A DNA stretch of 25,933 nt from a virus. The DNA lies in the IMG/VR virus record IMGVR_UViG_3300047333_000138, positions 1-25,933 of that record; one strand, written 5' to 3'. Position 1 is the first letter of the stretch, and each line of letters begins with the position of its first letter. This document shows positions 7,561-25,347 of this stretch, piece by piece. A model generated the notes under the pieces. That model made no database searches. It saw only the letters and a list, made by a program, of their open reading frames with translations, and was not told the DNA's origin. The position numbers and the translations under genes were made by a program.

Positions 7561-7597
7561 AATATGGGGGTGTGATATTCCACACCCCCATATTTTT
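7561..7597 (+). terminator. Rho-independent terminator
   Basis: AATATGGGGGTGTG (7561-7574) and CACACCCCCATATT (7581-7594) form a perfect 14-bp stem around the loop ATATTC. The descending arm runs into five T residues (7593-7597). The element fills the gap between the SSB-like gene and the next ATG and is the clearest terminator in the window. Because the structure is symmetric with an A-rich 5' flank (AATA), weak activity on the minus strand is also possible. Confidence 0.88.
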
Positions 7598-7610
7598 GTG
7601 GAGAGAATCC

Positions 7611-7925
7611 ATGCCAGAATCCCACGAAACAATTCCAGAGCCGAAGATCTTCCCCGGCTCCCCCACCAAGCCCACTCCCAGGGAACTAATCGCCGAACGC
7701 GGCAAGACCCACGGCGACTACACCCTCCACGCCGAGATAACCCAAGCCATCAAACGTGTTATGTACGAACGGTCCACAAAGACACTTACCGCTCCCCAAC
7801 TCGAGTCCCTCGACATGATCGCCCACAAAATCGGCCGCATCCTCGCTGGCGATCCGGACTTTCGCGACCACTGGGCCGACATTGCCGGCTATGCCCAGCT
7901 AGTCGCAGATAGGTGCAGCAAATGA
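7611..7925 (+). CDS. DUF6378-like phage protein (104 aa)
   Basis: ATG at 7611 has GGAGAG at good spacing; a GTG at 7572 in the same frame lies within the terminator and is not used. The sequence matches what I know of the DUF6378 family: LIAERGKTHGDYTLHAEITQ, then LESLDMIAHKIGRILAGDPD, then FRDHWADIAGYAQLVADR. The helical layout and conserved Glu/Asp residues recall all-alpha NTP pyrophosphatases (MazG-like), but catalytic activity is not established. It is the first gene after the terminator and so may lead the replication transcript. It overlaps the next mini-gene by ATGA. Confidence 0.7.
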   Translation: MPESHETIPEPKIFPGSPTKPTPRELIAERGKTHGDYTLHAEITQAIKRVMYERSTKTLTAPQLESLDMIAHKIGRILAGDPDFRDHWADIAGYAQLVADRCSK

Positions 7926-8035
7926 CCCTAGCCTTCTATTGGTTCCCCATCAACTGGGGCGGAACTTTCTTCGCTTTCTACACCAACGGCCAGATCACGG
8001 CCATAATCTGCGAATGTGGAGACCCGTTTCCATGA
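7922..8035 (+). CDS. Mini-gene, 37-aa hydrophobic peptide
   Basis: A 38-codon frame begins in an ATGA overlap with the DUF6378-like gene and ends in an ATGA overlap with the UDG-exonuclease gene. This double coupling is the main argument that it is real. The peptide starts MTLAFYWFPINWGGTFFAFY, very rich in aromatic residues, and ends with C-E-C-G-D-P. It could be a membrane-associated micropeptide or simply a translation bridge to the next gene. No homologue is recognised. Confidence 0.5.
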   Translation: MTLAFYWFPINWGGTFFAFYTNGQITAIICECGDPFP

Positions 8036-9162
8036 CCCCCCTCTTCCTCCTCGCCGAAGCCCGTGGCGAAGCCGAAGCCCGCCATTCCTCCACCCTCATC
8101 GGTGCCTCGGGTATCGAACTCCTCCGCATGATGGGGGAGGCCCAGCTAATCGACCTCTCCCCAGTCGATCACGGCCTAATCGACCTCTACTACCGCACCA
8201 ACGACAATCGCCACATCATCGCCATCTGGGCCAACCACCCCGAAGTTCACCGCACCAACGTATTCAACATCCACCCGCCTGGCAACAATCTCGCCCACTT
8301 CCTCGGAGCCAAATCTGATGCTATCCCCGGCTACCCAGCGCTTAAGCTCACTATCAACAAATCCGGCCCCAGACCTGCTGGTAACTTCGTGCGTGCCGAA
8401 TTCGCCCCCGAACTCGACAAACTTGGAGATGAGCTTATTAAACACAACCCCAATCTTGTTATCTGCCTGGGTAATGTTGCTCTCTGGGCTCTTACTGGCT
8501 CGACTGGGATTGCTAAACTGCGGGGTACTACTTTATTGTCTACCCATACTGCTGCTGATTTCAAGCTTCTCCCTACCTACCATCCTTCCGCTGTACTTCG
8601 CAACTACGATCTGCGCCCAACCGTAATCGCCGACTTCATGAAAGCCAAGCGAGAATCCACCCATGCCGATATCCACCGACCTCCCCGCCAAATATGGATC
8701 GAACCGTCGATCGAAGATATTCACCACTTCATCGCCACCCATATCCTCAGATGCCCACTCCTTTCAGTCGACATTGAAACGTCTGCAGATCGAATTACGT
8801 GCATTGGCTTCGCTCCCCGAGCCGACCTTGCGATCGTTATACCATTCGATGACGCCCGCCGAGCAGATAACAACTACTGGCCGACTGCTCACGATGAACG
8901 ATCAGCTTGGCGCGCTATCCGTGACGTGCTTGAGGATCCATCAATCCCAAAGCTGTTCCAAAACGGAGCCTACGACATCGCCTTCCTCTGGCGATCAATG
9001 AAGATCAAAGTGCTGGGCGCCGCCCACGACACCATGCTACTCCACCACGCTCTCCAGCCCGAGTCCCTAAAAAGCCTCGGCTACTTAGGTTCCATCTACT
9101 CTGATGAAGGCAGCTGGAAACACATGCGCAAGCGAGAGAAGACAATCAAGAGGGATAACTAA
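8032..9162 (+). CDS. UDG-superfamily domain fused to Pol I-type 3'-5' exonuclease (N-terminal part of split DNA polymerase)
   Basis: I start at the ATG at 8032, overlapping the mini-gene by ATGA; 376 residues. Residues 1-205 read as a uracil-DNA glycosylase superfamily fold: FLLAEARGEAEARH (equivalent to GEAPGxxE), GASGIELLRMM, VFNIHPPGNN, NLVICLGNVALWAL, KLRGTTLL and H184-P-S-A-V-L-R. Residues 240-376 are a DnaQ-like exonuclease of DNA polymerase I: Exo I D247-I-E249, Exo II N311-x3-D315 (LFQNGAYDIAFL), then AHDTMLLHHALQPESLKSLG. The protein stops at KTIKRDN, before any Exo III motif; that motif (YNGLD) is at the start of the polymerase gene at 9426. The two proteins probably act together at the fork, proofreading and possibly removing or sensing uracil. 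Confidence 0.82.
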   Translation: MTPLFLLAEARGEAEARHSSTLIGASGIELLRMMGEAQLIDLSPVDHGLIDLYYRTNDNRHIIAIWANHPEVHRTNVFNIHPPGNNLAHFLGAKSDAIPGYPALKLTINKSGPRPAGNFVRAEFAPELDKLGDELIKHNPNLVICLGNVALWALTGSTGIAKLRGTTLLSTHTAADFKLLPTYHPSAVLRNYDLRPTVIADFMKAKRESTHADIHRPPRQIWIEPSIEDIHHFIATHILRCPLLSVDIETSADRITCIGFAPRADLAIVIPFDDARRADNNYWPTAHDERSAWRAIRDVLEDPSIPKLFQNGAYDIAFLWRSMKIKVLGAAHDTMLLHHALQPESLKSLGYLGSIYSDEGSWKHMRKREKTIKRDN

Positions 9163-9163
9163 A

Positions 9164-9418
9164 ATGGAACCCAAATACAAGCCAGGCGCATTCTACTGGG
9201 TTAAACCTGTCTTCGATGTAGACTTTACCCCGCCAGGATCGCCCGATGCCGATTTTGATACTCGTTACAACCATTGGAGACAACAAGAACAGCCCGCAAG
9301 ATTCGAAGGGTATTCTGAAACAGGAGAGGAGATTTGGATTTATTTAGGGGTAGATGACCCCCACCCATGGCCAGTTTGCTGGGTGGGGGATGAAATTACC
9401 AAAGGAGACCACCGGTGA
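9164..9418 (+). CDS. 84-aa protein inserted between exonuclease and polymerase genes
   Basis: The ATG at 9164 follows the exonuclease stop by one base (TAAaATG). The product is acidic and Trp/Tyr-rich: FYWVKPVFDVDFTPPGSPDA early, an NHWRQQEQPARFEGY middle, then EEIWIYLGVDDPHPWPVCWV. This Trp-rich beta pattern resembles small uncharacterised phage cargo proteins. It carries no HNH, GIY-YIG or LAGLIDADG endonuclease motif. The DNA is less C-rich than its neighbours, suggesting separate acquisition. Its stop overlaps a GTG in the arrangement GTGA at 9415-9418. Function unknown; it may be a cargo gene or a factor bridging the two polymerase halves. Confidence 0.65.
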   Translation: MEPKYKPGAFYWVKPVFDVDFTPPGSPDADFDTRYNHWRQQEQPARFEGYSETGEEIWIYLGVDDPHPWPVCWVGDEITKGDHR

Positions 9419-9429
9419 TCAAACTGTGA
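9415..9429 (+). other. Nested four-codon reading frame at the polymerase start
   Basis: AAAGGAG at 9401-9407 is ideally spaced for the GTG at 9415, but that frame reads only V-I-K-L before TGA (9427-9429). That TGA overlaps GTG 9426, the likely polymerase start. The result is two consecutive GTGA stop-start overlaps. It may act as a reinitiation relay, or it may reflect a small indel that separated the ribosome binding site from the polymerase frame. Confidence 0.4.
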
Positions 9430-10928
9430 AAATCATCTCCACCCACCTCGACGACCCAGCCCAATACACCGACTTCGAGCGTGATCAAATCTACAACGGC
9501 CTCGACGTATGTGTAACCCAGGACGTGTTCAATGCCACCCATCCCCAACTCGACCCCATCACCGCCGCCACCTACACCTTCTCCCGAGCTCTTCAAGGCC
9601 CTGTTCTGGATATGCGTTGTCGCGGCGTGCTTGTTGATCTGGTTCGTCGTGGTGAAGTTATCGATGAGCTCTGCGACAGCATTGATCATATAGAACAGCA
9701 ACTCAACCGCATCATCTACAACGGCGTTGGAATGTCCGGCGATTTCAACTGGCGATCCAACGCCGATCTGCAGCGCCTATTCTACACCGAGCTAGGCATC
9801 TCCCCCATCACCAAACAAGGCCGACCCACTACCGACCGCAACGCTCGGGAGAAACTCGCCGCCTACCCCATCGCCACCCAGCTAATCCACCACATCAACG
9901 CCCTCACCGAACTTGGAGATAAACTCAGTGTCCTACGAACAGCGATTGATCCCGACGGCCGAATACGAACAAGCTATAACATTGCTGGGACAAGTACAGG
10001 CCGCTTTAGCAGTTCCCTATCAGAGTTCGGGACAGGGGGAAACTTACAAAATGTTGAAGAATCCCTACGATCTATATTCATCGCTGACCCAGGTTATAAA
10101 TTTGCTAAGTTCGACGCCAAGTCCGGCGAGTCCTTCTGCGTCGGCGCCATCGAATGGAACCTCTTCCGAGACGGAACTTACCTCGACGCATGTGAGACTG
10201 GAGACCCTCATACAGCGGTTGCAAGAATTGTCTGGCCGGAGTTGGACTGGACCGGAGACCTTAGCCGAGACAAGGCGACAGCTGAGAGACCTTATTATCG
10301 CCACCACAGCTATCGCTTTATGTGTAAAAAACTCGGGCACGGCTCAAATTATGGCGGCAAACCCTACACCCTCGCCCAGCAAACCCAACTCCCCATCGAC
10401 GTCGTCGCCGGATTCCAGCCCAAGTACTTTAACGCTTTTCCTGCACATCGCCGATGGCAAGCTCACGTCGAGCATACCCTCCGATCAATGGGGCATCTTA
10501 CGTCGCTTACTGGTCGGAAGCGATGGTTCCTCGGCCGACGTTCTGATCCAAGCACCCTTCGTGAAGCGATCGCCTATGATCCTCAGTGTTCCCTTGCGGA
10601 TATTGTAAACTCCGCGATGCTGAAAATCTGGCGGATGGGGATCGCCACAGTCATGATGCAAGACCACGATGCGATCACGTTCATGTACAAGGAATCCGAT
10701 GAAGAACGAATCATTCCCATCCTTCTCCGGGAATTGGAGGTCCCCATCCCATTGGCAGATGGACGGGTCCTCAGAATCCCTTATGATGCGGAGGTTGGAT
10801 GGAACAAAGGCCACGTATCATCCAGCAATCCTGACGGGCTTATCCCTTACCGAGGCCACGACCCCCGCCGTCGCCACCCAATCCGCAATCTCCTAGACAA
10901 CCTTGTCGCCAGCCATAAGGTATCATAA
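9426..10928 (+). CDS. Family A DNA polymerase, polymerase domain (C-terminal part of split enzyme)
   Basis: About 500 residues counted from GTG 9426; ATGs at 9390 and 9354 are alternatives but would only add sequence overlapping the previous gene. Near the N-terminus is YNGLDVCVT (Y23, D27), the Exo III signature of Pol I exonucleases, whose Exo I and II lie on the gene at 8032. Polymerase motifs follow: GTSTGRFSSSLSEFGTGGNL, motif A KFAKFDAKSGESF (D230, E235), motif B RFMCKKLGHGSNYGG (R297, N308, Y309), an SLADIVNSAMLKIW helix, and motif C MMQDHDAITF (H414, D415). These are the catalytic residues of the replicative phage PolA type. No 5'-nuclease domain is present. A 231-residue second frame overlaps part of this gene and is treated as a shadow. 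Confidence 0.88.
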   Translation: MKIISTHLDDPAQYTDFERDQIYNGLDVCVTQDVFNATHPQLDPITAATYTFSRALQGPVLDMRCRGVLVDLVRRGEVIDELCDSIDHIEQQLNRIIYNGVGMSGDFNWRSNADLQRLFYTELGISPITKQGRPTTDRNAREKLAAYPIATQLIHHINALTELGDKLSVLRTAIDPDGRIRTSYNIAGTSTGRFSSSLSEFGTGGNLQNVEESLRSIFIADPGYKFAKFDAKSGESFCVGAIEWNLFRDGTYLDACETGDPHTAVARIVWPELDWTGDLSRDKATAERPYYRHHSYRFMCKKLGHGSNYGGKPYTLAQQTQLPIDVVAGFQPKYFNAFPAHRRWQAHVEHTLRSMGHLTSLTGRKRWFLGRRSDPSTLREAIAYDPQCSLADIVNSAMLKIWRMGIATVMMQDHDAITFMYKESDEERIIPILLRELEVPIPLADGRVLRIPYDAEVGWNKGHVSSSNPDGLIPYRGHDPRRRHPIRNLLDNLVASHKVS

Positions 10929-10929
10929 C

Positions 10930-12174
10930 ATGGGCTCCTCCCCCACCAACGGCGCCCGACATCTCCCCAACTGGATCGACGCATTTGTCTCCCACACCGA
11001 TAACCTCCACTCCCCCAAGCCGTTCCGTATCTGGTCGGCGATCACCACCATCGCGGCGGTGTTGGAACAAAAGGTCTGGATCCAAACTTCAACCCCAGTA
11101 TACCCCAACCTCTATGTCTTCATCGTCGGTCACCCATCCACCGGCAAGACCCGGGCCATTCGCGAGGCCCGAAAACTTGCCGCGGCCATGCCCGACCCCT
11201 TCATCACCCCCACCAGCATCACCTTCGCGGCGTTGGTGGACTTCCTCGCCGAGTCCAAGCGCACAATCATCCGCCAGCCCGAGGGGGAGATCATCTACAA
11301 CGCCGCCTTTATCTGCGCCGATGAGCTCGGGTCATTCATGCACAAATACGAGAAAGAAATGACCGATGGGCTTTCCTCCTTCTACGACCAAGACGCCTAT
11401 GGCCAGCGCCGGCGGACTGGCGATCTCAAGGTCAAACTCACCAGCCCATTAGTCAACATCCTCGCCGGGTCCACGCCCCAGAACCTGATGGACTTCATCC
11501 CCGAAAGCGCCTGGGGCCAGGGATTCACCTCTCGGCTGATCTTCGCCTTCTCGGACGAGCGGATCATCGGCGACGACTTCGCCAAATCCGCTGCCAACGA
11601 CCCGACCGAGCTAATCCATGACCTGAAACTAATAAACTCCCTCTATGGGGAGTTCCGCGTCACCGAATCATACCGTGATGCCGTTAACCAATGGCGGGCG
11701 CTAGGTGAACCTCCCGTCCCAAACCATCCCCGGCTGATCCACTACATCGGCAGAAGAAAGATGAACATCTACAAACTCTCCATGATCGCGTCCATCAACA
11801 AATCCTCCGGGCTTATCCTCACCGAAGCCGACTTCATGCAGGCCCTAGAATGGCTCGTCGCCGCCGAAACTAGCATGCCCGACATCTTCAAAGCCGGTGC
11901 AGTCAACGCCGACGGTATGGCCATGGATGAAATCCAACACTACGTCCGCGTCAACGACCTCGGCACCGGTGTGTCCGAACAGCGGATCGTCCACTTCGCT
12001 CGCAGCCATGTCCCACTCCATTCCATCCTCCGCATAATGGAAATCATGACCGGCTCAGGGATGCTTCGCCTGGTCCGTACCGAAAAACGAACCGGGGCGA
12101 GGTTCTTCTCCGCCACCCCGGTTGCGCCTACACCTCCGGAAGTTTCGCCCGAAGTAAAGTCTCTATTGCAGTGA
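10930..12174 (+). CDS. AAA+/P-loop ATPase, DUF3987-like phage replicative helicase candidate
   Basis: The 414-residue product starts at the ATG at 10930, one base after the polymerase stop; an earlier in-frame ATG at 10903 lies inside the polymerase gene. GHPSTGKT (67-74) is Walker A, AFICADELG with D131-E132 is Walker B, ILAGSTPQNL (178-186) is a sensor-1-like strand, and GFTSRLIF with R202 is a candidate arginine finger. The N-terminal LPNWIDAFVSHTDN and the WSAITTIAAVLEQKVW segment are typical of DUF3987-type phage proteins that accompany or replace primase-helicases. The C-terminal 90 residues look like a winged-helix domain (EQRIVHFARSHVPLHSILRI). A replicative helicase role next to the polymerase is inferred. 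Its 3' end overlaps a convergent gene by 47 bases. Confidence 0.75.
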   Translation: MGSSPTNGARHLPNWIDAFVSHTDNLHSPKPFRIWSAITTIAAVLEQKVWIQTSTPVYPNLYVFIVGHPSTGKTRAIREARKLAAAMPDPFITPTSITFAALVDFLAESKRTIIRQPEGEIIYNAAFICADELGSFMHKYEKEMTDGLSSFYDQDAYGQRRRTGDLKVKLTSPLVNILAGSTPQNLMDFIPESAWGQGFTSRLIFAFSDERIIGDDFAKSAANDPTELIHDLKLINSLYGEFRVTESYRDAVNQWRALGEPPVPNHPRLIHYIGRRKMNIYKLSMIASINKSSGLILTEADFMQALEWLVAAETSMPDIFKAGAVNADGMAMDEIQHYVRVNDLGTGVSEQRIVHFARSHVPLHSILRIMEIMTGSGMLRLVRTEKRTGARFFSATPVAPTPPEVSPEVKSLLQ

Positions 12175-13378: not shown

Positions 13379-16300
13379 CTACCTATTCGGCATGGACTTC
13401 CCTGCCAAGTAATCATTAAACGTCTGCGAATGCCCCCGGATGGTACCATACCTCCCCAACACCAACCATCCCCAGGGACCTTTGGGTTTCTCAATCCCCT
13501 GGGCCAGGCCGTACCCGGCACTAACCTCCTTACTCACCTGTTCCGGTACCCCAGTAAACGCCCCGGCGAACATCCCTGCATCGCGAATCATCTTTTCCGC
13601 GTGGAGTGGACTGAGCGGTTCTTTCTTCCCCCAATCACGAGCAACTTCATACATCGCCTTACCCTCGGTGGACAACAATCCCACATCCGGGTCCTTGGCG
13701 TCAAGAATCGCGTTGGTGAACTCCCGTATCACCGGCAGCGTCGCGCCCTCGGTGTAGATCAACGACTTTGCCGCCCGCTTTCCCCAACTATCCTTGGGAT
13801 CACTTGGCTGCGGACTCACCAAGCTCTCCACAATCGCTGGGTAGATACTATACGCAAACATCCCCACCGCCACTCCAGCCGCTACCTTCATCGCCGCATC
13901 GTGTTGGCCGGATTTAACCAGCCCCTTAATCTCTCCCGCTCTCCACAGCGTCTCCATCTGGCGATTGAAAATATCATTGAAGAAATTATACACCGAGGTA
14001 AACCAAGGACTGACATAATTCGTCAACATCGGCCGATTCGTCACCGACGTCGACCCATGCGCGCCCCGCACCGCCCGGTCAGCTTCATACACCGCATCGC
14101 CGTGGGTCGCGCCTTCCTCTATGGCCTTTTTATACTGCGCCAACCACGTAGGCACCGCCGACATCATATCCGACAGCGCGATTGGTTTGCTGCCCCATTC
14201 CATAATCCGCTGCCGCCACTTGCCGAATTTATTCCCCGCCCGCAGTTCGCCGGTCGCGCCGTACAGCGTCTCTTGCCAGTTCCGATCGCGGCGTTGTAAC
14301 TCCAGCGAATTACTCACCGCGAAGTTCCAGTTGGTATCATTGGTTTGATCATTAATAGAGAACAGGCTATGTACCGCATCGGCGAATGGCCTGAACCCTA
14401 CCTCCGCCACACTCAACCCCGCCGCTGTAGGCCCGTGTTTCAACACCGTCCCCGGATTCAACAACACTAATGCGCCGATTAAATTCTGTCTCATGAATTC
14501 ACTAACCCCCGCCAGCCAAAGCCCATCCTTCTGCGCGTTGTTGCTAGCATTAGCCACACTCCGCAGATAAGGCACAAGCATATCGGTGTATTCCTTGCCA
14601 TAATGCGTCGTGATCGCTGCTCGAATCTGTGGATCTTTGAACACCTTAATCGCATTCAACACCGCCGGCCGCACCGCGGTGTTGTGAATCATCTGCGCTA
14701 TACGATTAGGCATTTGATCCAACGTCAGCGCAGTCGGGGCAATATACCCCGTCCGATCATTCTCATACCCCGCCCCAGGCATGGCGCGGTCAAACCCTTC
14801 AAACCCCTCCCCGAGCAGCCCGACATTCCCCATCAACTTCCGGCTTTCACCTTCATACGTGGGATGGTATATCATCGGATAATACCCGCCGCGATAGCTC
14901 CCATGCCGATTCGTGAATGGTACCGCCTCAATCCGCTGGGCCGGGACGCCAGACACCGACAGATACATTGTATCCGACCGATCCTTGAGCCCCTTAAATA
15001 TATCCCAAATCGCCTGGACCCGATCCCAATCCGCAGCCGTGGCGTGGGTGTTCACCCAGTTTCGAATCGCGTTCGGATCCACTCCCCAACCCTTAGACAT
15101 TTTAGTCAGATTCGATTCATTCCCCATATTCAACATTATCGCGTGCAAACCCTCGCGGTTGATAGTCAGTGTCCGCCCACCATAATCTGCCGGAGCTTTG
15201 AACAACCCCGGATTGGGGACGTTTTTGTGCATATCCTCAATATCCGGCAGCGCGGATATTTTTTTACTGGTTTCTTTCTTCCACGCATCGGATTGATTCA
15301 CCCCATCAATCATATCCCGCAGGACATACTGATTCCACACACCATATTTATCAAAGTTATCCCAGCGAGTGAACACCCGCTCGATTTGTAGAACGCTGGC
15401 CAGCCCGGAACGTAGGGTTTGGGTTACTATATTCGCCCCGCCAGTTTCGTTCTTTTCAGTCGCAGCGAATCGGGAGACATTCTCGATCAGTTGTTCCTTA
15501 ATCTCCTGGCGATCTGCCTCATCGCCAGCCTTGATCAGCTTCCGTTCTTCCCGGCCGTTGTGTATCAACGCCACTATCGAATCCCGCACCGCCCTGAACT
15601 CTGGCGGGGATAGGTCTTTATATTCACTCTTCCAGTTCGCATCATACAACTTATCCCAAATCGGCAGAACCTGCAACATCGATCGCTTGGCCTCGACAAA
15701 GTCCTTCAGCGTCCCCTCAGTCTCCGCCGCAATCGCCCGGGCCAGGTCCTCAGGTGTCCGGCGAACTTTCTTGCCGATTTGCATTAATATCGAATGCACC
15801 CAGTTGGTATACTCCGTCTCCATACTGGGGATCACCCGCTTGGAGAATTGTTTGGCGGTTTTATCGAACCTAGCCATTTCCTTCTCGAGGAGCCTGGCCT
15901 CCTTCGCTGCGTAGGTCAGCAGCGTCTGTTTCTCCAACGCCACCACCGCCTTGCCGAAGTCTTTGTTCGCCAGGAAATTCTCTGCGTCCCTGGCATGTTT
16001 GCCCATGTCCTGCATCAAGCGGAATGAATTGATCTGCCCCAAGGTCTTGGAGTTGATTACATTCCTTGCCGCGGCCTTGACCACCTCCCGGTCAACCCCG
16101 ATCTTCCCCGCCTCCAAGCACGCGGCCATGTATTCTTCATGCAACAAATTCAACGCCGGTTCACTCAACGCCTGCTCAGTCGCAGCGTCCATGATATTAT
16201 CATCCAGCGCTCCGTACCGCGCCTCCATTCGCCGTTCGGTTTCGGTCTTCACCATCTGCCGAATAAAATCATCCCTCCCCATCCGGTTGCCATTATCAGC

Positions 16301-19300
16301 CTTCCGCAGTTCACTCACCCGCCCCAGGGCCCAGGCCAGTTCATCCCTCGACCCATATCCAAACATCCCCGCGACTTGATCGGCAGGGAGCCCGTTCTTG
16401 GAGGTGTAATGCTCCGGTATCATCGCGAGTTGTTCGGGGGTGAAATCCTCTCTGCGGAGAGTGTATCGCTGTTGGAGTTTCTTCCCCATAAGTTCACCAG
16501 AGCCGATGAACAAATCCGCAGCGATGTCCGGCCGCTGGCGAATCTCCGCCGATACTTCCTTGGCTATATCCGCAGAGTTGGCTTTCCATTCCTTAGTCTG
16601 TCTCCGCGCCTGGTCTCTCTCGGCCCGGGCCTGGGCGGCTTTCATGTCGAACTCGTCCTTTTCACGGGCGGCTTGCATGACCCTGGCGAAGGACTCTGGG
16701 CGCAGACCCACAGCCTGGGCGCGGAGGTTGTCGGCACCCTCGAGGGAGAACTTTGCCTCCAGCCCACGGATATCCGCCGCTCCTTCCACTCTCGGCGCAC
16801 CCGGTCCCCGGCCAGCGACTTCCCCAGAATGGACCTTCGCGAAGACCTCCTCCCAAGTCGCATCGGCACCGAACCCCAACCGGGCCTTGATCGCGTCGAA
16901 CAAATCCATAATCTTCTGGAACACTGCGCCGATCCCGGTCTTGGGTCGAATCTCCGGGGCCTGGGCAGCCCATTCGCGGAATCCATCGACGACGGCTTCT
17001 TCTAGTTGTTCCTCGTGGGTGAGGTGTCCGTACCGTTGGCCGATGTTGTACCGCGCCAGCCAACCTTCGGACATCGCCGCAGATTCCAGCGCCGCCCATT
17101 CCTTGTCGGTGAGGAAATTATACCCTCTCAGAAAATGCATCGCTTCGTGGCGGCCCACACCAACCGGGTCGTCGCGCATAATATCCAGCAGAATATCCGG
17201 GCGGCCCTCCCGGCTGGGCATGTAGGCCCCAGCTGCGTACTTCCCCGCCCGTTCACTATAGATCCCTGTGGTCGGTACGACTTTACTATGTCCACCAGTG
17301 ATACGCTGAACTTCCTCCATCGCAACTCGGCCCAATTCCGTCTGGGCCAGGGAGGCTTCACTCTCTCGAGTCAGTAAAGAATCGCTATATCGCTGCCAAC
17401 CCCCCTCAAATATCTCCTGCATGTCATGATGACTCTGCGGATCAAAATCATCCGCATCCAACTTCACCTTCGCCACCCCGGTCGCGCCCGCATTGGCCCG
17501 AGCCCCACTAACCCGAAACCCAGTGATGTAATCATAATCCGGATAGAGTTCCTTCAACTGCCGTTTCAAATCCCTAATCAGTGCCGGGCCGAAACTATTA
17601 GACCACAATCCGGCTTGGCCGCCGACCCAGTTGACGAACAGCGATCGATCAGTGCCTAATCCAAGACTTATCTCTCCAACACTTTGCCCGTTTTCATCGA
17701 GAATATTAAATTCATGGAATCGGGTTCCACTCAGCCGTTCGCCGGTTGGTTCAAGAGATATTCTGCCTTCAAGTTTTTTCCCTGGGATGGGAATTGCAGG
17801 TGAGGGCCTCGTGCTTGAGTCATCCCCAATCTGGTTTGTTTCTTCAACTCCCAAAGCGTTCCGCAGATGGGCGTAGGGGTCATCCTCCTCCACAGCCAGC
17901 TTGGGCTTCAGGGTTTGTTTATTTTCCAAACCTAATTGTTCTGACGCTAAACCCCCTTCTTTTACATCCTCCATATCATCCGCTGATAACTGTCGAGCCT
18001 TGGAGGCGATTTCTCCAGCTTCGATATTATTTACTACACGGCCAGTGGAGGTTTTGAACAGAGTCTTTGTTCCATCTCCTATAATCTGATCCTTATATTT
18101 ATCAAAGAACTGTTCGAAATCCATTTCTGGTGCAATAGCTTCATGGGCCGCCTCCATAGAATGTGCATGTGTTGGCCCTGAGAATACTTGTCCGTCGATT
18201 ACTGTCGCTGCTCCAGTTATAGATTCTGAAGGCGAATCGGCTCTCGATAAAGTTAACTTCCGATCCCCCATGCTAAACTTTGGTTCCAACCCCGCCCCAG
18301 CGCGGACCTGTGGCAGCGGATCGTCAATCACAGCCCTTGGAGGAATCGGCTCTTTGGCTTCATTGGCTGTAATCCCTCCCGGCGACATGCGGATGTCATC
18401 ATGCAGGGCCCTAGCTACCTTGGGATCAACATTCGCCAGCCAATCTGCGGCTTTGACCGAGATCCCTTCCCCAGTATCCCTGGCCGCGGCCAGTTGAGCG
18501 TCGATATTAGGCACCCAGCCCAGTAACCCATCCCCAGGCCCAGGAAGTTTATCCCCATACAACCCCAACACTGCATCACCGTGAATGGTGAATGTACTAT
18601 CCCCAAAATGTTGCTTCACAAACTGCGCAAACATCTCTGAACTGCGGTCTTTGGTCAGATCGGCTTGGGCATTGGCTAGATCTCGATCCAAGAGATTCAG
18701 CATTATTTCATTAAGCTTGCCCTTGGCGGCATCCACCGTTGCGCTCAGCCCCGCCGGGGGTTCCTTCCCCTGAGCGAACCAGTTTCGAATCACTGCAATT
18801 TCAGAATTAGCCTGGGCCTGCTGTCGAATGAAATCTTCGTGCTTAATCCCCGCCGGACCCTCCCCATGCAGTGGCATATCCCCACGCATCATGGCCCATT
18901 CAGTCATGGCCCCGAGTTCGCGACCAAACTGGCCAGCGCCCAGGGCCGCCCCGGTTTGGTCCTCCAGAGATTTAAGATACGTCTCCCCGCCCGCCGACGC
19001 CCCCGCCACCGCCGCTGCCCCGGTTGCGTTCATCACCCGCAACAGCAGACTCGCTGCGGAGAGTTCCCCGGTCGCCAGCGACCATCCCGGCCCTCGGACG
19101 CCGTGGTACATCTCATCCGCGATTTCGGTCGGAGCCTTGCCTAGGGGTTCCTGTTCAAACGCCTCATCCCCTGCCTGCCCCGCCGCGCGCAGGGCCGCAT
19201 CGACCACCTTCACCGGGGTGGCAAAGGTGCTGGTCATGGCCTTTAACAGTCCCGCCGATAACCCAGCATCGCGGGAGAATTTGTCTAGATTGGCCCAGTC

Positions 19301-19636
19301 ATCGTTGGAGATCGAGGCCGCCAAGGGATGGGATTGCAGATACGCAACCAACTCGGGGTTGTTCAACACAATCTGCTGAGCAGTCTGTCGTCGGACATTC
19401 TCCCGTTCTTCATCGAGGTTATTCAGCGTCCACGCCGGGGGTGTGCCAGTGAGGTCTGACAACTGCTTGGCTTCGGCAGCGTCGTCGGGGTTTTGTTCAA
19501 GGCCGTCGTTGATAGCGATTCGCTGTTGGACTTGGGCCGAGCGGATAGTCCTGGCGATATCATCGCCGCCGAGCGTGAAAGGATCGATCGTTGGGTCAAA
19601 GTCGATGTTGGGATCCAGCGGAGTCATGGCGTTCAT
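13379..19636 (-). CDS. Giant internal virion/DNA-ejection protein (2085 aa), gp16-like position, with HEAMH metallopeptidase motif
   Basis: Position, size and order (after gp13-, gp14- and gp15-like genes) match the T7 gp16 ejection protein, although T7 gp16 is about 1300 residues. I see no N-terminal lytic transglycosylase. The middle contains GVGRHEAMHFL, a HExxH zinc motif (H830, E831, H834), with a candidate third ligand at E880 in LEEAVVDGF; this looks like a gluzincin-type peptidase. Residues of about 635-715 (FNILDENGQSVGEISLGLG onward) have an alpha/beta pattern that could be GNAT-like. Residues of about 983-1030 are a charged helix, and 1915-1936 are hydrophobic (VAAGVAVGMFAYSIYPAI). 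The protein is probably packaged in the virion and ejected into the host, perhaps with the peptidase. It overlaps the upstream gene by ATGA. Confidence 0.75.
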   Translation of the reverse strand: MNAMTPLDPNIDFDPTIDPFTLGGDDIARTIRSAQVQQRIAINDGLEQNPDDAAEAKQLSDLTGTPPAWTLNNLDEERENVRRQTAQQIVLNNPELVAYLQSHPLAASISNDDWANLDKFSRDAGLSAGLLKAMTSTFATPVKVVDAALRAAGQAGDEAFEQEPLGKAPTEIADEMYHGVRGPGWSLATGELSAASLLLRVMNATGAAAVAGASAGGETYLKSLEDQTGAALGAGQFGRELGAMTEWAMMRGDMPLHGEGPAGIKHEDFIRQQAQANSEIAVIRNWFAQGKEPPAGLSATVDAAKGKLNEIMLNLLDRDLANAQADLTKDRSSEMFAQFVKQHFGDSTFTIHGDAVLGLYGDKLPGPGDGLLGWVPNIDAQLAAARDTGEGISVKAADWLANVDPKVARALHDDIRMSPGGITANEAKEPIPPRAVIDDPLPQVRAGAGLEPKFSMGDRKLTLSRADSPSESITGAATVIDGQVFSGPTHAHSMEAAHEAIAPEMDFEQFFDKYKDQIIGDGTKTLFKTSTGRVVNNIEAGEIASKARQLSADDMEDVKEGGLASEQLGLENKQTLKPKLAVEEDDPYAHLRNALGVEETNQIGDDSSTRPSPAIPIPGKKLEGRISLEPTGERLSGTRFHEFNILDENGQSVGEISLGLGTDRSLFVNWVGGQAGLWSNSFGPALIRDLKRQLKELYPDYDYITGFRVSGARANAGATGVAKVKLDADDFDPQSHHDMQEIFEGGWQRYSDSLLTRESEASLAQTELGRVAMEEVQRITGGHSKVVPTTGIYSERAGKYAAGAYMPSREGRPDILLDIMRDDPVGVGRHEAMHFLRGYNFLTDKEWAALESAAMSEGWLARYNIGQRYGHLTHEEQLEEAVVDGFREWAAQAPEIRPKTGIGAVFQKIMDLFDAIKARLGFGADATWEEVFAKVHSGEVAGRGPGAPRVEGAADIRGLEAKFSLEGADNLRAQAVGLRPESFARVMQAAREKDEFDMKAAQARAERDQARRQTKEWKANSADIAKEVSAEIRQRPDIAADLFIGSGELMGKKLQQRYTLRREDFTPEQLAMIPEHYTSKNGLPADQVAGMFGYGSRDELAWALGRVSELRKADNGNRMGRDDFIRQMVKTETERRMEARYGALDDNIMDAATEQALSEPALNLLHEEYMAACLEAGKIGVDREVVKAAARNVINSKTLGQINSFRLMQDMGKHARDAENFLANKDFGKAVVALEKQTLLTYAAKEARLLEKEMARFDKTAKQFSKRVIPSMETEYTNWVHSILMQIGKKVRRTPEDLARAIAAETEGTLKDFVEAKRSMLQVLPIWDKLYDANWKSEYKDLSPPEFRAVRDSIVALIHNGREERKLIKAGDEADRQEIKEQLIENVSRFAATEKNETGGANIVTQTLRSGLASVLQIERVFTRWDNFDKYGVWNQYVLRDMIDGVNQSDAWKKETSKKISALPDIEDMHKNVPNPGLFKAPADYGGRTLTINREGLHAIMLNMGNESNLTKMSKGWGVDPNAIRNWVNTHATAADWDRVQAIWDIFKGLKDRSDTMYLSVSGVPAQRIEAVPFTNRHGSYRGGYYPMIYHPTYEGESRKLMGNVGLLGEGFEGFDRAMPGAGYENDRTGYIAPTALTLDQMPNRIAQMIHNTAVRPAVLNAIKVFKDPQIRAAITTHYGKEYTDMLVPYLRSVANASNNAQKDGLWLAGVSEFMRQNLIGALVLLNPGTVLKHGPTAAGLSVAEVGFRPFADAVHSLFSINDQTNDTNWNFAVSNSLELQRRDRNWQETLYGATGELRAGNKFGKWRQRIMEWGSKPIALSDMMSAVPTWLAQYKKAIEEGATHGDAVYEADRAVRGAHGSTSVTNRPMLTNYVSPWFTSVYNFFNDIFNRQMETLWRAGEIKGLVKSGQHDAAMKVAAGVAVGMFAYSIYPAIVESLVSPQPSDPKDSWGKRAAKSLIYTEGATLPVIREFTNAILDAKDPDVGLLSTEGKAMYEVARDWGKKEPLSPLHAEKMIRDAGMFAGAFTGVPEQVSKEVSAGYGLAQGIEKPKGPWGWLVLGRYGTIRGHSQTFNDYLAGKSMPNR

Positions 19637-21507
19637 GGCACCACTCGATCTTCAACTTTAGATTTGGCCGAGCCAGCGGATTTACCCAAATTGTTGTAGA
19701 TAGCATGCAAGGCCAGCTGATTCGCGACATCCAGATCCGCTGGACTGGACAGATCTGGTTCGCGGTTGTAAGCTTGCCTGAACAGTGACCGTGCTGCGCG
19801 GGTGACACTATCCGGCTTCTCAGGAGCCGGATCGGCGTCGATGAGATTGGTGATGGATTTGCTATTATAAAACCAGCCTCTATTTATCTTCGTTTCTCGG
19901 GAGATTAAATCCTTGGCGATAATTCCCAATTCATTATCATTCTTAACCGACCGTTCGGCGCCCAGGCCGTATTGAATAATAGCTTGTTGGTATTCAGTTT
20001 GGAATTTGTTGTATGTATCCTGGTCAACAGCCTTACCATCATCCCCCAAAATCCCAGCGTCCTTGAGCATCTTAGTCACTTGAGGTAAATGCAACGCCAT
20101 TTGCATGGGCGGGTTCTGAATCTGCTGATGAACCACATCGTGCTGGATTTTAATCAGATTACTTATCTGATCTCGTGTCATGCTGGTATACTGCGGTTTT
20201 GTAAAATCCGCCTCGGCCAGGGTCTTCAAATCCTCAGGCGTCGATGTGGTGTCGCGGTTAATTCCGATCCGCATCAGGCTGTAGTAAGTCAAATCCCCAG
20301 TGGGATTATGCTCCACTCCGCCGATGTCATTGTTCTTGCGAAAACGTTCCAACAAAGCTTTTTGTGAAGTGGGATCGAGCGTGTTAAACTTCTGATTAAA
20401 CCCTGGATTCATCCGCTCCGCTTCTTCGGGGGATAGTGGGACCTTACCGTCCTTAGATTTATCCCCGTTAATCTGCGACATCAACTCATTGCGGACTTGT
20501 TGATTGGCGAGGAATACAGCCTTCTGGTGTTGTTCCACCTCCGCCATCGACCGCTGTTCGGCATTATCGGCAAGATCAGGATTTCTCGGGTCCTTGGCCA
20601 TAGCCTTAGCCCGAGCCAGCGCGCCGACGTCCTTGACCGTCGCATCCGGCGGGGCAGTGCGCACCGCTTCGCGGGCGATGTCCGCTGCGCCTTTGTTCAA
20701 CTCATGGGACTCAATAACTCCGCGGATAGACTCAGCATCCTCGGGCAAGAGCAGCGGATGATCGCCGCTGGACATCCGCTCGAAGAATGCTTTGCCATCG
20801 ATACCATTGGCATTGGACCGCGCCAAGGCGACTTTCTTGATCTCCTGCGACAACAGCCTCGACGCAGCAGCTTCGTTCTCAGGCGTCCCGGGCGCGAACC
20901 GACCAAGGGCTTTGCTCTCACTCACCGACGTAACAGCAGCGGATTTAAGTCCCGCGATTCGCTGGTCAAACTCCGGCCCAGCGGAGACGTTCAGAGTAGC
21001 AAGTTGATCGCCCAGGGAACTAATCTTAGCCAACCCCGCCTTGGTGGTGGCTTGTTCAAACCCCTCCCGGCCCAGCACAGCACCGTGCCAGATCATCATC
21101 GATTCATTACGCCGAGTTTGATCTAGGTAGGCTTGTTTGGCCCATGGGGAATTTAACCCCGCCGCGCCGTCTTCACGCATCTTGGCAAGATCGCGCATGT
21201 ATTGAGGCAAGGCAGCTTTTTGATCGCCGGGCGGGAGATCAGAGAGTTCAAGATACCGCAGGGTTTGCTTGGTAAACACATCCGCAGATGCAGCGTCGGC
21301 CTTGTTGTGTTCATCCATTTCCTGCATTGCATAGGCGCGGGCGAAGAGTTCCTTCCCAGCCCCTTCGCTGACCTCGCCCATGTGTGTGATCGCCCCAGCC
21401 ACAGCCCCGCCGAACGCGGCGATTGGAGTGTCGACATGCACCGGCGACAGGGGGTCAACCTGTGGTGTTACATCCAACGTGCCGGAGTATGGGACTGGTG
21501 TGGCCAT
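19633..21507 (-). CDS. Internal virion protein, gp15-like (624 aa)
   Basis: TAGGAAG upstream supports the ATG at 21507. The product is long, hydrophilic and almost entirely helical, with no signal peptide. The N-terminus is Pro/Val-rich (TPVPYSGTLDVTPQVDP), followed by long charged helices and Lys/Asp/Glu-rich loops. There is no recognisable catalytic motif. Size and position, between a Gln/Ala-rich gp14-like protein and the giant gp16-like protein, match the internal core protein gp15 of T7-like podoviruses, which helps form the ejection channel. The assignment rests on gene order and helical character rather than sequence identity. It ends in an ATGA overlap with the giant gene. Confidence 0.65.
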   Translation of the reverse strand: MATPVPYSGTLDVTPQVDPLSPVHVDTPIAAFGGAVAGAITHMGEVSEGAGKELFARAYAMQEMDEHNKADAASADVFTKQTLRYLELSDLPPGDQKAALPQYMRDLAKMREDGAAGLNSPWAKQAYLDQTRRNESMMIWHGAVLGREGFEQATTKAGLAKISSLGDQLATLNVSAGPEFDQRIAGLKSAAVTSVSESKALGRFAPGTPENEAAASRLLSQEIKKVALARSNANGIDGKAFFERMSSGDHPLLLPEDAESIRGVIESHELNKGAADIAREAVRTAPPDATVKDVGALARAKAMAKDPRNPDLADNAEQRSMAEVEQHQKAVFLANQQVRNELMSQINGDKSKDGKVPLSPEEAERMNPGFNQKFNTLDPTSQKALLERFRKNNDIGGVEHNPTGDLTYYSLMRIGINRDTTSTPEDLKTLAEADFTKPQYTSMTRDQISNLIKIQHDVVHQQIQNPPMQMALHLPQVTKMLKDAGILGDDGKAVDQDTYNKFQTEYQQAIIQYGLGAERSVKNDNELGIIAKDLISRETKINRGWFYNSKSITNLIDADPAPEKPDSVTRAARSLFRQAYNREPDLSSPADLDVANQLALHAIYNNLGKSAGSAKSKVEDRVVP

Positions 21508-21510
21508 GAA

Positions 21511-22086
21511 TTAGCTTCCTAACGCTCCGCTATTCGATCCGCCGGGATTGCCCCACATCCCAACCCGCTGGCCTTGCAGCCACATGGATGAAACAGAGCT
21601 GGCCCCGCCCAGTATCGACGACCCAGCGCCGATTGCTCCAGCTTCCATCGCGTTGGCCCCGGCCGCGGAATACACCTGGGCCTGGGCCCCAGCGACCGAA
21701 GCTTGTTCTTGGTAATTATACGCTGTCTTCGCTGCGTTAGACCGGATTATGGATTGGTCAAGCCCGGCGAGTTTCTGCTGACTGGCCTGGACTTGCAGAT
21801 TCGAGCCAGACCTAACATCAAACCCAGACGAGGCTTGAGCGACCTTGATCTGCCCGGCCTGCTGGCGAGATTTAAGCCCGGATTGCAGAGCCTGTTGTTC
21901 GCCGGTTTGGGTAGCGAATTCAGCGTTTTGTTGAGCAATCTGTTGGTTCAGTCTAGCAACGCCGGACTGGTAGTTGTCCATGTTTTTGTTAGCAACGCCG
22001 GAAGTTAGCGCCCCGAACGCGCCAAGAATGCCCCCACCCGCGGCCGCGCCCATGCCGATTCCAGCGATAGTGGAGTTATCAACCAT
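21511..22086 (-). CDS. Internal virion protein, gp14-like (191 aa)
   Basis: The N-terminus has a Gly/Ala-rich hydrophobic helix (residues 8-33, AGIGMGAAAGGGILGAFGAL). A Gln/Ala/Ser-rich helical body follows (NQQIAQQNAEFATQTGEQQA), then a second Gly/Ala-rich segment near residues 140-165. This composition is characteristic of podovirus gp14-type proteins, which leave the capsid and insert in the outer membrane as part of the ejection conduit. The start overlaps the GNAT gene's stop by 8 bases; its ribosome binding site is weak, suggesting translational coupling. Confidence 0.7.
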   Translation of the reverse strand: MVDNSTIAGIGMGAAAGGGILGAFGALTSGVANKNMDNYQSGVARLNQQIAQQNAEFATQTGEQQALQSGLKSRQQAGQIKVAQASSGFDVRSGSNLQVQASQQKLAGLDQSIIRSNAAKTAYNYQEQASVAGAQAQVYSAAGANAMEAGAIGAGSSILGGASSVSSMWLQGQRVGMWGNPGGSNSGALGS

Positions 22087-22501
22087 GCGCTGGACTTTCG
22101 ATTATGAATGGTTTGGGTGTGCGGGCGTTGGGCATGAACTTCGCGCCCAGGGATTGTAACCACGCTTCACTACGGGCACCTAAAGAACAAGTCCCAATCA
22201 CGCGGGGGTAGTGAGTCATCGCCACTTCCAGCACCGCCCGGCCAGTGCGAATGATTGCGATTGGGTGTTCAAACGCGGCCAGAGTGTGTTGCATCCACAC
22301 AAACGCAGTACCGGGGCAATCGGGAACTGGATAAAACCCACCCAAGCACAGCAGCGTCTCACCCAACCACACCGACACAGCCGGATCGCAGGCATCACAG
22401 ATTTCATGAATTGCCCGCAGCTGGGTGGCATTGGTGGGGATATACACCCTCGCCAGCCGTTCCGCCTCGGCGCCGTCGATTTTTCTCACTTCGGTGTTCA
22501 T
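22079..22501 (-). CDS. GNAT-fold protein, T7 gp13-like internal virion protein A (140 aa)
   Basis: The product resembles the small GNAT-like proteins (DUF2833 group) located between tail tube and internal-core genes in T7-like phages: VSVWLGETLLCLGGFYPVPD supplies the central strands, then VWMQHTLAAF, THYPRVIGTC, and RSEAWLQSLGAKFMP as the typical C-terminal helix. T7 gp13 is needed for virion assembly; acetyltransferase activity is not established for these proteins. The ATG overlaps the upstream stop as ATGA. Confidence 0.7.
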   Translation of the reverse strand: MNTEVRKIDGAEAERLARVYIPTNATQLRAIHEICDACDPAVSVWLGETLLCLGGFYPVPDCPGTAFVWMQHTLAAFEHPIAIIRTGRAVLEVAMTHYPRVIGTCSLGARSEAWLQSLGAKFMPNARTPKPFIIESPAHG

Positions 22502-25344
22502 GGGTCGTCTTCTACAACCAGGGTGGGGAACACACCCAAGATCGTGGCAGGGTAAGGATTGGATTGCTGGATGCAGTATTGGCCGGGAACTGTGTAAGTT
22601 GGGCCCAGAAAGGTGCGGGCGTCGCCGGAGTACAGGCCAGAGACAACTTGGGTTTGCTGACCAGTGAGCATGGAGGAGACGTTTCCTTGAACAAGATCGG
22701 CCATGGGAGTGAGGTGGTTAAAATCATCGCCGATGGTGAGGCCTAGGGTGTTGTTTACACGTACTACAACATTAGGAATCTTTTTAAGCTTACCTTGAAT
22801 CTGCTGTTTGGAAGTGTCGATGGCGAGGGTTTGGAGTTTGCAAGTGAACCCCAACCCAATGGTGACGGTGGTGTAGTTAACCGCTCCGCTAGATGGGGCT
22901 GGAAGGGTGAACTGGCCATTGAGGGGCATTATAAACGGGGTGATGATGGTTACATTCCCCAAATTATCCGTGGCTAGCCCAGTGACCGTCAACCCCGCCA
23001 GATGCTCCCCACCAGTAAAGCTAAGAGCTCCCGCGCCGGTGTATTGCGATCCGCTGTCCACACACCAGGCCGAGGAGAGGCCATTAGTAAATGCCCGGTC
23101 AGCGACTCGCTCGATGTATTGAACGGTATTGCCATTTACAACCCGTTGAACGGCAGTATACACCGCATCGACATTGCCAGCATCGGAGGTGGATTCAGTA
23201 ACGCTGGAGACGGATTTGAACAGCCCCTGGGTGGTTTGGTGTGTCCAGCCGACAAATTCCTGTTCCTTAAGAAAGGTTAACGTTAACATCACCCCATCAC
23301 TACGCACAGCCCAGACGACATAGTATGGACATTCCGCCCAAGTCCATTCGTTGATGGTGTAGCCGAAGAATAGATGCGAGGAGGTGATGGAGATATCTGT
23401 GCCGGTGAAGACGTTGAAGTAGATATTATACGTCAAATCCCGAACAGCAGATCCCTTGAACTGCACAAACAACACATCATAGTTCGACACAATCGGCGGG
23501 ACATCATTAGCTCCAACATGGGACTGCAAATTCGCCACAATAGCCGACGGCGATACCGCCGAGCCAGAGGTGCCTCCGTTGATCAACCACGAGGCTTTAT
23601 CGGTTAGTATCAACATCCCCGCTGGGGCGGAGACAATGGATTTGATTGTATTAAGTGTCCCTGCCACCAACGTCTCGGTGATGGCATTATCGGCGGCGAT
23701 TGGATCGGTGACATTGAAATTAAAATACAACCCCGGCTGGGACATATAAAACGTCTGCGGAGCCGCAGTTGGTGCGGCGAGGACCAGCCGCTGCTGGAAG
23801 AAACTCGGCACGGAAGGATTGCCATTGGACGCAGCCGTTAACGTCACCGTCGCTGCCGCGGACCCGGATGAAAAGTTCACGGTCGGCACCGAACCATACC
23901 CAGCCCCAGCGGCGAGAACATCAACCGCCGTCACTCCCCAAGTCACAGTCGCCTGGGCGTTAGTACCCGCCCCGCTGGTAGCCACTTGCACAATCGGATT
24001 ACTGGGCACAGACCCGGACGTGATCGCTCCACCCAATGCAAACGCCCAGGACGTGATCGCCCCTCCGGACTGCCCAGTAACAGTCAAAACCAGACTGTGC
24101 CCGAAGCTGACTGTATCCCCAACAACAAACCCAGCCCCGCCACTGGTGATGGTCGGAAGGGCGATTGCTCCCAGCGATGCCACCAACGAAGCGGGGATGC
24201 TAGGGCTACCCCCACTCAGTGTCACACTCGGGACTGTGGTGTAGGTACCATTCGCGGTGATGGTAAGGAACGCCACTCCGCTACCAACAAACGGGTTCTG
24301 CGCCACCGGCGGCGATTCGGAGAAATCTTGGCCAATATTCGAATCGACAAACTCCGTGCCCTTACAGGTGCCGATGAACCCATAATTCACCCCTGGCGGG
24401 ACGACACCATAATAGTTCACATAAGATTCATAGACATTATACGCCACCGCACCAGGCTGGGCCGTCCAAGAGACGGTGTTGGACCCCGCGACTGAGCGAA
24501 TATCTTGTCTGTTAACCAAACTCGCCGCGGTAGATAGGACTGATTCCTGGCCAGAGTTGTCGATGGATGTAACCGCATAGCTGTAGTTGGTATTTCCCGA
24601 GCCAAGCGTTGATGCAACAGACACCCCACCAGGCGGCGAAACTGTAGCCCCGAATGTGATTGGGGTCAGCGTCCAATCTGTGGCGGTAATCACCGATAAC
24701 AACATCGGCGCGTAGTTGGGATGGCACAGCACCATCTCATTCGTGGCCTGGGCGAACTTGAGCAGAGCCAAATCCGCAGCGGCGTAGGTGGTGGTGAGAG
24801 TATAGACCCGCTGGGCCGTGCCGCCAGAGGTGTAGGCAGTGTAGGCTGTGGAGTTAATCGCTACGCCGTTGAGATCGGCGAGGGTGAGGTTATTCCCAGA
24901 AACATTACTGATCGAGAAATATCGCCCGTTGAGTTGGGTCATACCTCCCAGGCCGGAGAGGTAGATCCAATCCCCAACCGAATAAGCATTCCCCGGGACA
25001 GTGATGACACATGAACTAGCCTGAGTCGCGGCGGTGACGGTAATGCCAGTTTCCAAAACCGGTGAGCCTTGGTAATAGAATCGAATATAATACTGCCCAA
25101 ACTCGAGGATATAACCAACCAGGGTACTAGCCTGAAAGCTGATCAATCGTACTGGGTAGGCAGATTTGTAAGCTTGGAGAATATACTGCGTCCCCGGGCG
25201 TGTGCTGGCTCCGCCTCGATAATCAATGAAAAAATTCTGCAACAGCGCTGCACCGGAACGGTATTTCTGCAGATCCACCCGCGCGAATAGATTCGGGGCC
25301 CATTCGCCGCTGTTGAACGAAGCTTGGGCAATTATCTCAGCCAT
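22498..25344 (-). CDS. Tail tubular protein B-like (gp12-like) with FCCH and fibronectin-type inserts (948 aa)
   Basis: The N-terminus ASFNSGEWAPNLFARVDLQK, followed by LLQNFFIDYRGGASTRPGT (to about residue 51), is the standard opening of gp12-like nozzle proteins. FFQQRLVLAAPTAAPQTFYM at about 516-535 is the second conserved segment. Residues of about 110-178 match the FCCH-type domain widely annotated in phage tail proteins (GDWIYLSGLGGMTQLNGRYF). Residues 238-310 look like a fibronectin type III domain (NYSYAVTSIDNSGQESVL, then AYNVYES). Residues 355-505 are Gly/Ser/Thr-rich beta repeats (GAGYGSVPTVNFSSG). The protein forms part of the tail tube/nozzle in podoviruses. The inserts may decorate the tail surface and contact the host. 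Confidence 0.78.
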   Translation of the reverse strand: MAEIIAQASFNSGEWAPNLFARVDLQKYRSGAALLQNFFIDYRGGASTRPGTQYILQAYKSAYPVRLISFQASTLVGYILEFGQYYIRFYYQGSPVLETGITVTAATQASSCVITVPGNAYSVGDWIYLSGLGGMTQLNGRYFSISNVSGNNLTLADLNGVAINSTAYTAYTSGGTAQRVYTLTTTYAAADLALLKFAQATNEMVLCHPNYAPMLLSVITATDWTLTPITFGATVSPPGGVSVASTLGSGNTNYSYAVTSIDNSGQESVLSTAASLVNRQDIRSVAGSNTVSWTAQPGAVAYNVYESYVNYYGVVPPGVNYGFIGTCKGTEFVDSNIGQDFSESPPVAQNPFVGSGVAFLTITANGTYTTVPSVTLSGGSPSIPASLVASLGAIALPTITSGGAGFVVGDTVSFGHSLVLTVTGQSGGAITSWAFALGGAITSGSVPSNPIVQVATSGAGTNAQATVTWGVTAVDVLAAGAGYGSVPTVNFSSGSAAATVTLTAASNGNPSVPSFFQQRLVLAAPTAAPQTFYMSQPGLYFNFNVTDPIAADNAITETLVAGTLNTIKSIVSAPAGMLILTDKASWLINGGTSGSAVSPSAIVANLQSHVGANDVPPIVSNYDVLFVQFKGSAVRDLTYNIYFNVFTGTDISITSSHLFFGYTINEWTWAECPYYVVWAVRSDGVMLTLTFLKEQEFVGWTHQTTQGLFKSVSSVTESTSDAGNVDAVYTAVQRVVNGNTVQYIERVADRAFTNGLSSAWCVDSGSQYTGAGALSFTGGEHLAGLTVTGLATDNLGNVTIITPFIMPLNGQFTLPAPSSGAVNYTTVTIGLGFTCKLQTLAIDTSKQQIQGKLKKIPNVVVRVNNTLGLTIGDDFNHLTPMADLVQGNVSSMLTGQQTQVVSGLYSGDARTFLGPTYTVPGQYCIQQSNPYPATILGVFPTLVVEDDP

Positions 25345-25347
25345 TAA

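Follow-up and report, generated by a model that had tools for sequence, protein, structure and literature searches.

Two genes in the window (the whole 25,933-nucleotide stretch of viral DNA analyzed here) are very probably a single UDG-exonuclease-PolA polymerase in pieces, divided by an ancient insertion, whose halves, P1 and P2, reassemble in trans to give a complete metal site. The split itself is ancient and is found throughout a large clade of environmental phages. Because the catalytic residues are unchanged in both halves, we infer that P1 and P2 rebuild one enzyme; judged from the protein sequences, the two chains probably associate and probably retain exonuclease activity. Split polymerases are already known, and the notable part here is a cut that passes through the catalytic metal site and is kept throughout a clade.

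When searched against Pfam, P1 matches UDG (PF03167, 1.7e-8, residues 3-196) and DNA_pol_A_exo1 (PF01612, 9.3e-8, residues 238-351), and P2 matches DNA_pol_A (PF00476, 6.7e-30); the start position of P2 is backed by relatives whose reading frame opens there. A family profile aligns the exonuclease residues of the two proteins to the ExoI (D-x-E), ExoII (QNxxYD), and ExoIII (YxxxD) motifs of Klenow, and the polymerase motifs are aligned as well (Table 1), with R297 and K301 of motif B invariant in 61/61 split sequences. The PF00476 domain and motifs A, B, and C expected of a Pol I-type enzyme are thus found, and Exo I-III are all present but over two chains instead of one polypeptide, with the stop codon of P1 (9160-9162) falling between Exo II and Exo III. 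The original prediction, which had placed Exo I and Exo II on P1 and Exo III with motifs A/B/C on P2, is borne out in its ORFs, coordinates, and motifs by the ORF calls, the Pfam matches, and the Klenow alignment. The exonuclease metals of Klenow are bound by Asp355, Asp424, and Asp501, and its Tyr497 sets the position of the substrate (PMC9629493); in the alignment to P1 and P2, the ligand that corresponds to Asp501 is on the second chain.

Table 1. Coordinates in the window of the two polymerase genes, their motifs, and adjoining features
Feature	Position	Strand	Remarks
P1 ORF	8032..9162	+	376 aa; UDG-like domain, then the N-terminal portion of a Pol I-type 3'-5' exonuclease
UDG-superfamily domain of P1	8038..8619	+	Residues 3-196; AEARG at motif 1 (altered); H184 and P185 of the HP motif retained
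Exo I codons D247-I-E249 (DIET; Klenow D355/E357)	8770..8778	+	Profile alignment to Klenow
Exo II codons N311...D315 (QNGAYD; Klenow QNxxYD, D424)	8962..8976	+	Profile alignment to Klenow
P1 C-terminal tail codons T371-I-K-R-D375 (TIKRD)	9142..9156	+	DNA AAGAGGGAT
Intervening 84-aa ORF	9164..9418	+	Homologue in the same position only in L019
GGTGA, possible Shine-Dalgarno for the P2 GTG start	9413..9417	+	Inferred from sequence
P2 ORF	9426..10928	+	500 aa, GTG start; Exo III and family A polymerase
Exo III codons Y23...D27 (YNGLDVCVT; Klenow Y497/D501)	9492..9506	+	Profile alignment to Klenow
Polymerase motif A aspartate D230	10113..10115	+	Invariant in 61/61 split rows
Polymerase motif B R297-K301-H305-Y309	10314..10352	+	H replaces E. 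coli F762
Polymerase motif C H414-D415	10665..10670	+	Invariant in 61/61 split rows
DUF3987 / primase-helicase-like gene	10930..12174	+	Downstream of P2; in L103 and L105 the same neighbor lies after an unsplit polymerase

A search of phage genomes for the same split, proposed as a check on the original prediction, found it in about 90 IMG/VR loci (80 loci with P2 as the query, 23 with P1) and in Caulobacter phage Kuura. The break is the same in every IMG/VR locus that carries both genes, with the match to P1 running as far as the stop codon and that to P2 beginning at the first residues. Kuura shares this organization, with two genes between P1 and P2 (the pair being Kuura_029 and Kuura_026), and its P1 is annotated "hypothetical protein," an example of the mis-annotation of such genomes that the split explains. 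Because Kuura is an isolated podophage that forms plaques (PMC9959647), the split is compatible with productive infection and is no assembly error. In a maximum-likelihood tree of 94 rows, built by a quick method and with some long branches, the 61 distinct split sequences (including the window, Kuura, and L109) form one clade with an SH-aLRT value of 99 and with Kuura at its base. Mean identity to the window is 58% for P1 and 65% for P2, and no DNA-level relatives were found in phage records or in bacterial and archaeal genomes. Tree distances for P1 and P2 are in moderate agreement (Spearman 0.60), which counts against the explanation that we favor.

Single-chain UDG-exo-PolA homologues exist in Microcystis phage Mel-JY34, Caudoviricetes vir526, a Desulfofustis phage, MW202489, and many IMG/VR contigs, and unsplit orthologues adjoin the same DUF3987/primase-like neighbor; as expected of a gene in pieces, there are thus unsplit orthologues, and both pieces keep their catalytic residues. 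The Mel-JY34 and vir526 polymerases are homologous to P1/P2, with the same domain order and a similar neighborhood, but they are unsplit and have a linker of 16-20 residues. Between WK and YNGLD, the window pair has 13 + 22 = 35 residues, as compared with about 16-20 in unsplit relatives, so that its junction is about 15-19 residues longer; two new tails have been gained and nothing has been lost. The earlier claim that nothing is missing at the linker therefore stands, whereas the claim that its length is normal does not. The new tails at the break are conserved: TIKRD ends P1 (T371 in 59/59, K in 50/59, R in 49/59, and D in 54/59), and (M)(K/R)II-T begins P2. The TIKRD codons, AAGAGGGAT, also resemble a ribosome-binding site for the next ORF; because the R codon varies among AGG, AGA, and CGN, selection probably acts on the amino acids of this tail, whose DNA may also serve as a ribosome-binding site. 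Both flanking tails may have a role in docking.

D247, E249, N311, and D315 on P1 and Y23 and D27 on P2 are identical in 61/61 split sequences, and the same six residues are present in 26/26 unsplit ones, save for one S at D247. Synonymous codons are freely exchanged at these positions (GAC in 29 and GAT in 30 at D247; GAC in 30 and GAT in 29 at D27), and both ORFs are under purifying selection. Of the 50 N-terminal residues of P2, just five (Y23, G25, D27, T31, and Y50) are invariant (n = 59). The invariance on both chains, the synonymous exchange, and the location of the junction in a disordered loop (see below) all support reassembly in trans, one of the outcomes envisaged in the original prediction. 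A further step, in which the split has been exploited so that P1 is a detachable subunit for proofreading and base sensing and supplies the missing part of the metal site in trans, is unlikely; it would let these phages use one polymerase both with proofreading and without it.

A second outcome envisaged at the outset, that proofreading has been lost, with P2 an exonuclease-minus polymerase and P1 alone a UDG-like DNA-binding or repair protein, is disfavored by the invariance of the exonuclease residues and appears unlikely. Neither chain alone can hold a complete exonuclease site, family A polymerases without the exonuclease exist (Taq, Bst), and P1 would have a use of its own in the UDG-like domain; against this, the six residues are invariant on both chains despite synonymous saturation, Y23 and D27 stand as islands in the variable N terminus of P2, and the exonuclease part is never lost from P1. 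A caution for the explanation that we favor is that the dimer might, in principle, need the invariant residues for some other nuclease-like function.

It is distinctly unlikely that P1 and P2 assemble with the exonuclease serving a purpose other than proofreading, such as UDG-directed excision, or with P1 as a replaceable subunit by which proofreading is turned on or off. The UDG-like domain is carried by P1 in all cases, with H184/P185 and N76 retained in 61/61 split sequences, and separate genes permit separate dosage, but in the unsplit relatives a single chain carries these domains in the same order, so that a role of this kind does not require the split.

In the window, the 84-residue ORF between the two genes is unrelated to them and has no family in Pfam and only a weak match in PHROG (E 0.051); this insert is itself not an endonuclease, and the closest relative of the window (L001) is without an insert. 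Among 94 gap measurements (the IMG/VR loci and the window, some loci being overlapping records of one contig), P1 and P2 abut or overlap in 29: they overlap as ATGA, GTGA, or TTGA in 14 loci and by one base (TAATG or TGATG) in 12, and in L033, L037, and L077 the frames are in register and separated by one TAG and one codon only. The remaining loci have 35-792 bases between the genes. The gaps contain 91 called ORFs, which form 56 clusters without detectable mutual similarity, and an endonuclease is present in only about nine gap-carrying contigs (HNH genes in L002, L012, L034, L046, and L073; LAGLIDADG-like genes in L045 and L068; endonuclease-VII-type genes in L059 and L065). At least 15 switches between insert and no insert are needed on the tree, as compared with 17.0 when the labels are shuffled; because this is close to the value for random labels, the two states replace one another almost freely, with the stop and start staying in place. 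No general insertion footprint, seen as the last bases of P1 repeated at the far end of the insert, was found in 46 loci (mean 9.9 versus 9.75 for shuffled sequences), and a 14/14 repeat is present in L065 and L097 only.

These measurements bear on the possibility that the genes are joined before or during translation, by intron splicing, frameshifting, stop readthrough, or a split intein, which is barely credible. Some phage polymerase genes do contain group I introns (as cited in PMC10580990), and the three loci parted by a single TAG and one codon speak for such a joining; however, the genes of 26 loci lie in different frames and share 1 or 4 bases, inserts are found in all three frames, the abutting junctions have no slippery heptamer on their upstream side, a scan of 12 loci gave no match to an Rfam intron, and the 13 residues past WK in P1 and the 22 before Exo III in P2 are far too short for intein halves. 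Since abutting or overlapping genes leave nothing to splice, splicing of an intron, like fusion, is excluded for the clade, and the suggestion that the transcript is processed to join the two frames is refuted for the family. An assembly or sequencing artefact, or a decayed polymerase, might be suspected in a 25.9-kb metagenomic fragment, but the chance of this is negligible, as about 90 independent loci, together with an isolated plaque-forming phage, have this break, and both ORFs are under purifying selection.

We modeled the polymerase with AlphaFold2 as one chain, using the L077 locus with its single TAG read as Q, so that the join is built in; the folding alignment consisted of P1 (cut at WK), P2, and unsplit rows. 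The model has a mean pLDDT of 92.9 and a pTM of 0.88, and in the PDB it resembles Pol I and Klenow most closely, phage G20c DNA polymerase I being another match; the Klenow fragment and the G20c enzyme (PDB: 1d9d, 7r0k) have the same fold and the same exonuclease and polymerase motifs, but in a single chain. Residues 357-366, which span the junction, are the only segment with pLDDT below 50, and the RII residues of P2 form a short strand (371-374) ahead of the Exo III helix. The model shows the cut in a loop that is predicted to be flexible, with no fold element missing, and, being a single-chain model, it says nothing on chain association.

In the explanation that we favor, a gene, most likely for an HNH-type homing endonuclease, would have entered the loop between Exo II and Exo III in the ancestor of the clade; the insert would later have been lost or replaced many times, while the new stop and start persisted. 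P1 and P2 would be made from one operon by coupled translation and would associate non-covalently, with P1 contributing the UDG-like domain, the equivalents of D355, E357, and D424, and most of the DnaQ-like sheet, and P2 contributing the Exo III helix, with the equivalents of Y497 and D501, and the polymerase. The complete two-metal exonuclease site, and with it proofreading, would be present in the dimer only.

An endonuclease probably made the founding split, and a second, independent split at the same site is found in L124, a row nested within unsplit ones; there, the insert encodes a member of the HNH endonuclease family (PHROG 3377, 8e-28) and starts one base past the stop of the first piece, and the two pieces retain all six exonuclease residues. 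The wider family is also split at other places, which makes the polymerase a repeated target. The break lies between UDG and exonuclease in L144/L150, by an HNH_3 gene, just past Exo III in L106, and inside the polymerase domain in L101, L141/L145, L146/L147, and L152. Stop reassignment was considered for L141/L145 and rejected; this is another split at a polymerase-domain site, with a small insert.

The original prediction had called a split of this kind unusual; it is real, yet less singular than supposed, being common to a whole clade and preceded by two known split polymerases, gp43A/gp43B and MEP401 PolA. The gp43A/gp43B pair of the T4-related Aeromonas phages 25 and 44RR is likewise a two-gene replicative polymerase, sometimes with a homing endonuclease between the genes, but is of family B (PolB), whereas P1/P2 is of family A; the phage 25 proteins co-purify with polymerase activity (Petrov, Ratnayaka & Karam 2010, as reviewed in PMC2988022). 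The split PolA of OM43 phages (MEP401/MEP402), in two ORFs with a small ORF of no known function between them (PMC10580990), is of family A and common to a phage group, like P1/P2, but its break lies in the polymerase domain and leaves the exonuclease whole on one chain, whereas that of P1/P2 lies within the exonuclease. The split NrdA of phage Aeh1, which carries an insertion of mobE, is active (Friedrich 2007, as cited in PMC2988022); in Aeh1, a phage enzyme was cut in a critical region by an HNH endonuclease and kept its function through association, but NrdA is a ribonucleotide reductase and a single reported case, whereas the P1/P2 split defines a broad clade and has outlived its insert. 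A search of the literature outside subscription journals turned up no PolA with its break between Exo II and Exo III.

With the ligands of a two-metal exonuclease on two chains and fixed in a clade, P1 and P2 offer a clean test of how proteins survive a cut through the active site. The natural pairs (split and unsplit enzymes, and two independent splits at one site) may reveal how mobile endonucleases turn a gene into a complex, and the pair is a natural two-part polymerase to which proofreading might be added, or from which it might be withheld, via one protein.

The N-terminal half of P1 is a UDG-like domain that was unnamed in the original prediction. Active uracil-DNA glycosylases have a catalytic motif 1 of the GEAPG type and an HPS motif. 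Motif 1 reads AEARG in the window, and its fourth position has become hypervariable in the split clade (R, W, Q, Y, M, P, K, or L) but is P in 22/26 unsplit rows, whereas H184/P185 are retained in 61/61 split sequences.

The end of P1, the chain that carries a UDG-like domain and the front of the exonuclease, recurs at insert boundaries in two loci of related polymerases. At L065, a copy (ATAAAAAGGGATGA) lies where two inserted genes meet, and an inserted protein there has the C-terminus TIKRDE, identical to the P1 end; at L097, an exact 14-base repeat of the P1 end likewise sits at the junction of two inserted genes, close to the first insert boundary.

Related polymerases are also broken at other sites (see table). 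In four of them the break falls directly past the NLQN motif of the polymerase domain, with a small insert that is different in each, and one of the four comes from a cultured Vibrio phage, VS-ABTNL-3.

In the UDG-like domain of P1, motif 1 reads AEARG in the window (versus GEAPG), and its fourth position is hypervariable across the split clade (broken between Exo II and Exo III), in which N76 and H184/P185 are invariant. The domain is perhaps a uracil sensor and not a glycosylase. In P2, the Exo III and polymerase chain, H305 is His in 61/61 split rows and in 25 of the 26 unsplit relatives.

Coordinates of the features (window unless a locus is given)
Feature	Position	Strand	Remark
UDG-like domain, P1 N-terminus	8032-8619	+	motif 1 degenerate
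Polymerase motif B, P2	10314-10352	+	H305 = E. coli Pol I F762 position
Region with copy of P1 end	L065:4355-4570		copy exact, 14 bases
HNH_3 endonuclease ORF within polymerase	L144:1343-1684		break between UDG-like and exonuclease domains
HNH_3 endonuclease ORF within polymerase	L150:3626-3967		break between UDG-like and exonuclease domains
Related polymerase	L101:2909-6043		break inside polymerase domain
Related polymerase	L146:2902-5679		break inside polymerase domain
Related polymerase	L152:2989-6364		break inside polymerase domain
Related polymerase	L141:2956-5592		break inside polymerase domain
MW202554 polymerase	L106:1727-4364		further break immediately past Exo III; small ORF separates pieces
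117-aa protein	7572-7925		DUF6378
Structural module	13379-25932	-	podophage-like virus

The structural module encodes tail and internal virion proteins as well as a 2085-aa protein (PHROG 9880). The 117-aa protein matches phage families labelled "phosphofructokinase" (PHROG 474), an annotation that looks doubtful.
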